From NCBI GenBank assembly GCA_025408425.1, contig JANXYX010000027.1:1-64000 (forward strand): a stretch of 64,000 nucleotides of DNA, written 5' to 3'. Shown piece after piece: positions 8,672 to 49,740 of the stretch. The position numbers and the translations under genes are program-made. The stretch's first letter is position 1, and each line of letters starts with the position of its first letter. Below the pieces are notes generated by a model. The model was not told where the DNA came from. It worked only from the letters and a program-made list of their open reading frames with translations, and searched no databases. Source of the DNA: Granulicella sp. (GTDB lineage: Bacteria; Acidobacteriota; Terriglobia; Terriglobales; Acidobacteriaceae).

Positions 8672-9688
8672 TTACGGCCATATTATCGGAGCATTTAGTC
8701 TTCTTTCCAAGACCTTTTCCGCAGGATCGAAGCCAGGTATTTGACGAAGCCATTCTGAATCCGGCTCATAAGCCTCTTCAGGAATTAGACCGATTAGTTC
8801 ACCCTCAGCGGCTCGGACACCGTAACGTTGCGCGAGTTGCTCGACTGCCGCATAGACTTGCCGCATGGGTGTGATACGGAAGTCCGTGATGTTCATGCTG
8901 ACCTGCGCACGGCCATTTGCGATAACGCCAATCGCCTTAACACCGTGCATTCCTCCATTTGAAGCTCGAATATCGCGCGCAATGGCACGCGCAACGGAGA
9001 CATCTGGTGGCTGAAGTGCAATTTCGACTCCCTGCTTTGAGTTACCGCCAGAGACCCGCGCGGAGCTAAGGATCAACTCGTCGCCAGGGGCACGATAACC
9101 TGGTGTGGCCTGCTCCAAATAGATGTTGTATGCAATGAGGAAACTGCGCGCACCCACAGCACTAGCACCCGCTGTAGGGTGGAGTGCTGGACCACCTACA
9201 TCAGGGCGGCGGGCTGTATCTCGGAGGGACGCATCGCGAAGTCCCTCAAACTGTCCGCGTCGAACGTCTTCCAACTGGACGCGATCAGGCCGTGCAGCCG
9301 CGGCACCGTAGAAATAGACTGGCACACCGTACCGTCTCCAAATCTGTAGGCCGGCCTGCCTCGCAAGCATTGCACATTCTGCGAGGGAGATTCCGCTAAC
9401 GGGGACAAACGGTATTACGTCCGCCGCACCAATTCGCGGATGAACGCCAGTCTGTAAGGTGAGATTGATCAGTTCCGAAGCTTTTCCTGCCGATCGAATG
9501 GCTGCCTCCACAACCGCTGCAGGGGAGCCAGCTATTGTGACGACGGAGCGATTATGGGCGGCATCGAGCGACCAGTCCAGAAGACGAACGCCTTCTACCT
9601 GCATGGCTGCGATGATCTGCTTGACCTTGCCGGCGTCAACTCCTTCCGAGAAGTTGGGGACACACTCGATGATTGCGTCTGGATTCAT
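8672..9688 (-). CDS. Glutamate formimidoyltransferase
   Basis: A 338-residue protein starting MNPDAIIECVPNFSEGVDAGKVKQI, the conserved start of the formiminotransferase N-terminal subdomain. The block LTLQTGVHPRIGAADVIPFVP carries the family HPRIGA-D-P motif. The family transfers the formimidoyl group between formiminoglutamate and tetrahydrofolate in histidine breakdown. The cyclodeaminase half of the bifunctional enzyme is absent, so this is the monofunctional form common in bacteria. No other hut gene is adjacent, although a partial urocanase-like protein occurs at 47.4 kb. It may serve folate one-carbon metabolism instead. Confidence 0.92.
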   Translation of the reverse strand: MNPDAIIECVPNFSEGVDAGKVKQIIAAMQVEGVRLLDWSLDAAHNRSVVTIAGSPAAVVEAAIRSAGKASELINLTLQTGVHPRIGAADVIPFVPVSGISLAECAMLARQAGLQIWRRYGVPVYFYGAAAARPDRVQLEDVRRGQFEGLRDASLRDTARRPDVGGPALHPTAGASAVGARSFLIAYNIYLEQATPGYRAPGDELILSSARVSGGNSKQGVEIALQPPDVSVARAIARDIRASNGGMHGVKAIGVIANGRAQVSMNITDFRITPMRQVYAAVEQLAQRYGVRAAEGELIGLIPEEAYEPDSEWLRQIPGFDPAEKVLERRLNAPIIWP

Positions 9689-46813: not shown

Positions 46814-47425
46814 ATGCGCCTGAGTCCAGTATTTCTATTGTCGGCAACAGATGTTGCACACTTCCCGTCTGAAGCCAAGACGTTTGGTGCCCCTGAGATT
46901 GCGTTCCTTGGGCGATCAAACGTAGGCAAGTCGTCATTGATCAATTCCCTGCTGGGATCGAAGCAGGCGCACACGTCGTCTACTCCGGGCCGGACCCGTG
47001 CGATCAACTTCTTTGCGCTGCACGAAGGTGTGGGCGAGAAGATGAAGCAACGGCCGACGATGATCTTCGCCGACCTGCCGGGGTATGGCTATGCAAAGAT
47101 TTCGAAGTCGATTTCGTCGGAGTGGCCGAAGTTTATTGAGCCTTATCTGGCCGAGCGGGATACGTTGGCGCTGGCGATTTGTCTGGTGGACACGAATATT
47201 CCGCCGCAGCCAAGTGACAAGCAGCTGATTGAATATTTCAAGCAGACGCAGCGTCCTTTTCTTGTGGTGGGGACGAAGGCAGACCGGTTGTCGAACAACG
47301 TACTGGCGAAGAGCATTGCCACGTTGAAGCGGGAGCATGGGGTGGATGAGGTGTTGCCGGTGTCGGCGAAGACGGATGCCGGGACTAAGGCGCTGTGGGC
47401 CAGATTGATGGCGGTGGCGGAGTAG
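46814..47425 (+). CDS. engB: Ribosome biogenesis GTPase EngB (YsxC/YihA)
   Basis: A 203-residue small GTPase. G1 is GRSNVGKSSLIN, the switch I threonine region is SSTPGRTRAINF, G3 is DLPGYGYA, G4 is TKAD and G5 is SAKT. The GYGYAKISK stretch is specific to EngB. It acts in assembly of the large ribosomal subunit. Single gene on the plus strand, convergent with the next gene (nine-base gap). Confidence 0.96.
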   Translation: MRLSPVFLLSATDVAHFPSEAKTFGAPEIAFLGRSNVGKSSLINSLLGSKQAHTSSTPGRTRAINFFALHEGVGEKMKQRPTMIFADLPGYGYAKISKSISSEWPKFIEPYLAERDTLALAICLVDTNIPPQPSDKQLIEYFKQTQRPFLVVGTKADRLSNNVLAKSIATLKREHGVDEVLPVSAKTDAGTKALWARLMAVAE

Positions 47426-47434
47426 GGCCCGTCT

Positions 47435-48223
47435 CTAGGTGTTGGTTGCGAGGTGCTGGTTGTCGTGGATCAGGTGGTCGCGCTCGTGGCGGGTGAGCCA
47501 GAGGGTGCGGCATAGGGGCGATTCGCGGGGCAGGATTTTAGGGGCGGCGTGAAGCCATTTGCTGCGGAGGGTGTCTTCGGGAGCGATGAGGTTGAGGGCG
47601 CGGGCGTCGAATGCTCTAAGGGCCGAGGGTGTGGGCTGGGGGAAGGATTCCAAGTGCCAGTGACTTTGAGCCAGAGTGGTTTCGAGGAGCGCGTCTGCGT
47701 CTATGGCTTCGGGGTTGGTTCGATCGAAGTCCATGATGATTGCGCCGTTTGATTTGAAAGAGCGGGCGAAGGCGCGGGCTTCGAGGTGGCTGAGGTCGGT
47801 AAAGAGTTGTGGGGCTACTCCGCGGTCGAGGAGTTCCTGAAGGGTTTCGAGGAGGTTGGCCTGAAGGCCGACGGAGAGTGGAAGGTGTTTGCGGACCTCG
47901 TTCTTCATCGCGCGGAGGGCTTCGTCGAGGGTGTTGACGACAAAGTCGCAGGAGCCAGAGCGTAGGGCCTGATGTGCGACGGTGGGACTCTCTTCGATGC
48001 TGAGACAGACTGCTCCGGCGATGTTGGCAGCGATCGAGAGGGCGGCGCCCTGGGGGCCGAGGCCGCAGGAGAGGATGAGGGCTCCGCCCCAATCCTGACG
48101 GAGATGGTGGAGGACCGTGAAGGTGCGGAGGGTGCGGGTTTGGAGGGTGTCGTACAGGGGGTCGGTGGCTGGCATCGGGCTATATCCAGAATAGACGGGA
48201 TAGAGGGTGGACGGTTGAGACAC
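47435..48223 (-). CDS. Protein resembling the NAD-binding core of urocanate hydratase (partial-length)
   Basis: A 262-residue protein. The segment GGALILSCGLGPQGAALSIAANIAGAVCLSIEES, followed by ALRSGSCDFVVNTLDEALRAMKNEVRKHLPLSVGLQANLLETLQELLDRGVAPQLFTDLSHLEA, follows the order of the urocanase Rossmann core (T-x-G-L-G-G-M-x-x-A-Q, A-x-N-I-A-G, D-x-L-D-E-A, then G-N-x-V-x-x-x-E-x-L and V-D-L-x-S-D-Q-T). The GMSGAQ and SDQTS motifs are altered, and the flanking N- and C-terminal urocanase domains, including the catalytic cysteine region, are absent. Loss of catalytic activity is likely. Resemblance is by eye only. Confidence 0.55.
   Translation of the reverse strand: MSQPSTLYPVYSGYSPMPATDPLYDTLQTRTLRTFTVLHHLRQDWGGALILSCGLGPQGAALSIAANIAGAVCLSIEESPTVAHQALRSGSCDFVVNTLDEALRAMKNEVRKHLPLSVGLQANLLETLQELLDRGVAPQLFTDLSHLEARAFARSFKSNGAIIMDFDRTNPEAIDADALLETTLAQSHWHLESFPQPTPSALRAFDARALNLIAPEDTLRSKWLHAAPKILPRESPLCRTLWLTRHERDHLIHDNQHLATNT

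Positions 48224-48393: not shown

Positions 48394-49740
<1,347 letters not shown>

Follow-up and report, generated by a model that had tools for sequence, protein, structure and literature searches.

A short urocanase-derived gene beside engB in the Acidobacteriaceae

The gene, its neighbours and its parts

The window, i.e. the whole stretch of 64,000 nucleotides from Granulicella sp. (contig JANXYX010000027.1) that was analysed, possesses an open reading frame on the reverse strand at 47435-48223. The short gene itself is located at 47435..48175 (-) and encodes 246 aa from its likely ATG; read from the GTG at 48223 it would comprise 262 aa. The ATG at 48175 is most likely the translation start, because Met17 is invariant in the first alignment of 12 members and the confidence of the structure model is low before about residue 21 of the longer reading. 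On its 3' side the gene faces engB/yihA, a GTPase gene at 46814..47425 (+), tail to tail across a gap of 9 bases, an arrangement kept across the family. The upstream neighbour, myo-inositol-1-phosphate synthase (MIPS, 48394..49740 (-)), is found in this position only in the query's genus and in g80. A scan of the locus for sigma-70 promoters and terminators detected none, an intrinsic-terminator-like site in the junction with engB (window 47425-47435) was not found either, and PADLOC gave no defence-gene match for the short gene.

The short protein consists of the former cofactor domain of urocanase, followed by the helix-helix-strand unit with which the urocanase C-terminal core begins. The former NAD domain, a Rossmann-like fold, is encoded at 47792..48109 (-), corresponding to residues 39-144 of the 262-aa reading (PF01175, E 1e-17). 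It includes the family signature DFVVNTLDEALRAMKNEVRK (47888..47947 (-), residues 93-112), the most conserved stretch among 48 short homologues. What remains of the C-terminal core, its first part, is encoded at 47438..47641 (-); it carries R220, W223 and R239, and L241 occupies the column of the catalytic cysteine.

A second gene with a link to histidine breakdown lies far from the short gene. It encodes a formimidoyltransferase (FTCD) at 8672-9688 (-) (PF07837, E 1e-62), as the first-pass annotation had observed, and stands beside flagellar-looking genes. Neither hutH nor a second or full-length hutU was found in the query genome, and no hutI scored above the cut-off. In such a genome, FTCD must have a role other than one in the classical Hut pathway.

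Homology, fold and lost residues

The Pfam Urocanase model PF01175 matches the query with 64.9 bits (cut-off 23.2) and likewise matches all 24 aligned relatives; Urocanase_C is matched by two of these 24. The hutU equivalog TIGR01228 reaches just 49.2 bits against a cut-off of 375, and the models of full-length hutU, thiourocanate hydratase and S-methylthiourocanate hydratase match the core only, far below their cut-offs. Urocanases of the PDB are the top sequence matches of the query (E 1e-11). The similarity starts around urocanase residue 158, the N-terminal core being absent, and the C-terminal third on its own aligns with urocanase residues 380-457 in a profile-profile comparison (hhalign, E 1.5e-6). 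An AlphaFold2 model of the short protein, built on an alignment with 24 homologues, has a mean pLDDT of 92.5 and a pTM of 0.87. A Foldseek search of the PDB with this model has only urocanases and thiourocanate hydratases among its first 17 matches (best E 7e-15, query TM-score 0.73), and the alignment to urocanase spans 278 columns, essentially the entire protein.

The 48 short homologues were compared with 42 full urocanases at those columns that vary little or not at all among the full forms; the cofactor-contact or catalytic role of these columns is presumed from family annotation and from their invariance in the 42 full forms. GMG191-193, N257, QTSAH278-282, Y337 and C425 are lost in the short forms. 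The catalytic cysteine of LPARICWLG (column 425) is present in 42/42 full and 0/48 short forms, with leucine in the query, and neither of the hutU NAD loops GLGGMGG and TDQTSAHD is kept. Besides D227 and the signature of strand 3 and helix C, the short forms retain the acid after strand 2 (column 211; 44/48). Two residues are newly fixed in the short clade, namely R404 (98%) and E243 (96%), the latter being E109 of the query where urocanase has A243. On this comparison, the residues on the pyrophosphate and nicotinamide sides are gone in nearly all short forms and the ribose-side acid alone remains; as far as such residues tell, urocanase catalysis by the short protein is excluded. Its identity as a urocanase enzyme was rejected on length, catalytic cysteine, cofactor loops and the missing pathway.

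The first-pass annotation had proposed an NAD-sensing protein, i.e. one that would still use the cofactor site of urocanase. The Rossmann fold is indeed kept, as is the acid after strand 2 in most homologues, and the glycine loop of the query reads GLGPQG and thus resembles GxGxxG. Yet the relatives do not keep this loop (second glycine in 21/48, Met192 in 0/48), N257, QTSAH and Y337 are lost, and NAD in urocanase also contacts the core domains, which the short protein lacks. Judged by these sequences, an NAD(H) sensor has a slim chance, and the proposal found no support.

Other claims of the same annotation fared better. A truncated urocanase is upheld by profile, fold, tree and gene order, and the key motifs described as changed are those listed above. 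Its statement that the outer domains are missing is right for the N-terminal core and for most of the C-terminal core, but not for the C-terminal third, which still aligns to urocanase.

Distribution, gene order and origin

Among the matches listed, 48 short homologues occur in about 18 genera of the same bacterial family, with open frames of about 220-390 aa. Stops inside the matches of loci L088, L098 and L103 fall at the ends of their open frames. In a phylum-wide sample of 149 genomes, open frames that match in members of other families are 425 aa or longer, the one exception lying at a contig edge; the short form therefore seems to be confined to the family of the query. A search of plasmids returned the cores of full urocanases only. 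Named loci of the query's genus include Edaphobacter, and Edaphobacter aggregans DSM 19364 carries the short gene. With 48 homologues in independent genomes, an assembly artefact or the oddity of a single genome was rejected. The short form is a family-wide new form within the known urocanase superfamily.

In the tree the 48 short forms are monophyletic (support 100) and group with the native urocanases of the family and of the order (support 99); their grouping with the native family urocanases alone is weakly supported (63; 158 columns and a long stem). Full urocanases that coexist with the short form in a genome fall elsewhere in the tree, in other clades of urocanases. Those of the query's genus are only 25-37% identical to the query and of another lineage, which led to the rejection of a recent truncation within that genus.

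Gene order agrees with the tree in pointing to the native hutU. Neighbouring genes were named with Pfam (secretin with cohesin domain, pilin methylation motif, amidohydrolase, engB) and TIGR01224 (hutI). Native-hutU genomes of several genera possess the order smpB(-) / secretin / pseudopilin / pseudopilin / hutU / hutI / engB(-), in some loci with additional genes before engB, and in several genera 1-12 kb lie between engB and the native hutU that faces it. In the deep genera with the short form the ancestral order is kept: the short gene occupies the slot of hutU, hutI is gone and engB is mostly next. The short gene and engB are arranged tail to tail in all 26 fetched loci in which engB was located (gaps of -62 to 332 bases), and in many genomes only a few bases separate their ends, or the two genes overlap. 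A break has separated the secretin operon, which in the query's genus is on another contig, from the short gene, which still stands with engB. Related genomes without the short gene have MIPS directly adjoining engB, i.e. a clean loss.

The ancestral operon of hutU and hutI lies beside smpB and contains a secretin bearing an added C-terminal cohesin domain (Pfam, protein of L118; L118:3395-5818, L168:5616-8183), followed by two pseudopilin genes; a relative occurs in each of the 45 genomes tested. Given this setting, the short protein could be a cytoplasmic accessory of the secretin/pseudopilin machinery, whose operon contains it in the deep genera. It stands behind the cohesin-bearing secretin and directly behind the two pseudopilin genes; at L114 and L126, among other loci, it overlaps them or starts only a few bases further on. 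The position is inherited, however, since hutU held the slot before the truncation, and in the query's genus the secretin operon stands elsewhere and occurs whether or not the short gene does. We consider such an accessory role rather improbable.

No examined genome combines a native hutU with the short form, so that conversion in place is more plausible than duplication. Such a reduction of hutU at its locus would lead to what is seen in the deep genera, a short gene exactly in the hutU slot and no hutI. Genomes with the short form and a full hutU probably regained the latter by transfer, as we infer from the coexisting full urocanases being of another lineage than the native hutU of the family. 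Genomes that have lost the native hutU and kept the short gene often possess a full hutU of another lineage (loci L155-L165), which suggests that they gained histidine breakdown anew. In genome G033 a full hutU is accompanied by 8% contamination, so that co-occurrence of short and full forms is uncertain there.

An origin of the short gene from native hutU, with loss of the urocanase function and retention by selection, is probable. In a common ancestor the native hutU would, at its own locus, have been trimmed of one third at the 5' end and of most of the 3'-terminal third, so that the cofactor (Rossmann) domain and the initial helices of the C-terminal core were left; hutI, which came next, would have been lost as well. 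The product is a folded and soluble protein incapable of urocanase activity. Purifying selection has since kept the short gene in about 18 genera, including those in which the histidine pathway disappeared entirely and those that later acquired a different hutU.

Constraint, possible role and known systems

Pairwise omega (Nei-Gojobori) of the short gene is 0.40 in one close pair and 0.19-0.30 in six others, namely the query pair and five pairs of moderate divergence; one further pair (0.13) has saturated dS and was set aside. Between the query and its closest measured relative dN is 0.32 and dS 1.06, resulting in an omega of 0.30, whereas the yardsticks in the same pair give 0.06 (EngB) and 0.08 (MIPS). 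Omega of the short gene is thus several times that of its housekeeping neighbours. The N-terminal half has the lower dN in every pair. As estimated from these substitutions, the constraint on the short gene is real but moderate. Many genomes of the query's genus are without it, and it is dispensable, as several of them lost it cleanly with MIPS directly beside engB.

A decaying, functionless hutU pseudogene would explain the loss of catalytic and cofactor residues, the absence from many genomes of the genus and an omega above that of the neighbours. It does not fit an open frame, a fold and an invariant signature preserved in 48 homologues at saturating divergence, nor the low dN relative to dS in the query pair, the consistently lower dN of the N-terminal half and the substitutions newly fixed in the short clade. 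Omega and conservation largely refute a pseudogene, which we regard as very improbable. The word relic, used in the first-pass annotation, is accordingly apt for the origin of the gene but not in the sense of decay, given 48 homologues in about 18 genera, omega values of 0.13-0.40 and a well-packed predicted fold.

A partner or regulator of urocanase or of the histidine pathway, acting e.g. in mixed oligomers, might be expected of a protein derived from hutU, and 12 of the surveyed genomes with the short gene hold both hutH and a full hutU. In 17 others both are missing, so that the role does not depend on histidine breakdown, and the coexisting full forms are of another urocanase lineage. As a general role this partnership was rejected by the co-occurrence, and we give it hardly any weight.

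Most likely, as far as sequence and predicted fold allow, the short protein is a putative non-catalytic binding or regulatory module, and the regulatory function suggested in the first-pass annotation would be the likeliest kind of role. Preserved by selection are the fold, one face of helix C (R-x-x-K-N-E-x-R) and, in the former cleft, the adenosine-ribose side with the loop of strand 3 and the acid that follows strand 2; it is this preservation of the cleft side and the helix-C face that suggests a binding module. Taken on its own, this step is tentative, its chance being somewhat below even. Such a module would bind a partner protein, perhaps under the control of an adenine nucleotide, and would act as regulator or scaffold. 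An unlikely extension of the binding module is a new class of non-catalytic regulator, which would sense an adenine nucleotide with that half of the NAD cleft which has survived, and signal through the helix-C face; its partner would be common to the whole bacterial family, and the regulator would have been born by excision of the cofactor domain in place.

Truncated or pseudo urocanases, or an acidobacterial urocanase, were not encountered in the literature searched, which included few subscription papers and is no proof of novelty. The locus is a well-documented example of an enzyme gene that became something else without leaving its place on the chromosome; the earlier and the later states, from the intact ancestral operon to shortened descendants, clean losses and a later replacement by foreign hutU, can all be seen in living relatives. 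It is also a warning for annotation, as a match to PF01175 is here no evidence for histidine breakdown.

The short protein and HutU (EC 4.2.1.49; PF01175 and PF17392) are alike in the sequence of strands 1-5, in the inherited gene slot and, as regards the cofactor domain and the initial portion of the C-terminal core, in fold. The short protein differs in having half the size and no N-terminal core, in the loss of the catalytic cysteine (column 425) and the NAD loops, and, in the query genome, in a setting without hutH and hutI. Thiourocanate and S-methylthiourocanate hydratases (NF058530, NF058531; PDB 7ned, 8q9u) belong to the same superfamily and give local scores slightly above those of hutU. 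These enzymes are full-length, whereas the query matches their models over residues 40-149 only, with 60 bits against cut-offs of 880-930. Pseudoenzymes are paralogues that have lost catalysis and persist in binding, scaffolding or regulatory roles, and the short protein resembles them in the loss of catalytic residues, the kept fold and purifying selection. In contrast to the usual pseudoenzyme, however, a single domain has here been excised from a multidomain enzyme at its own locus, with no native copy retained.
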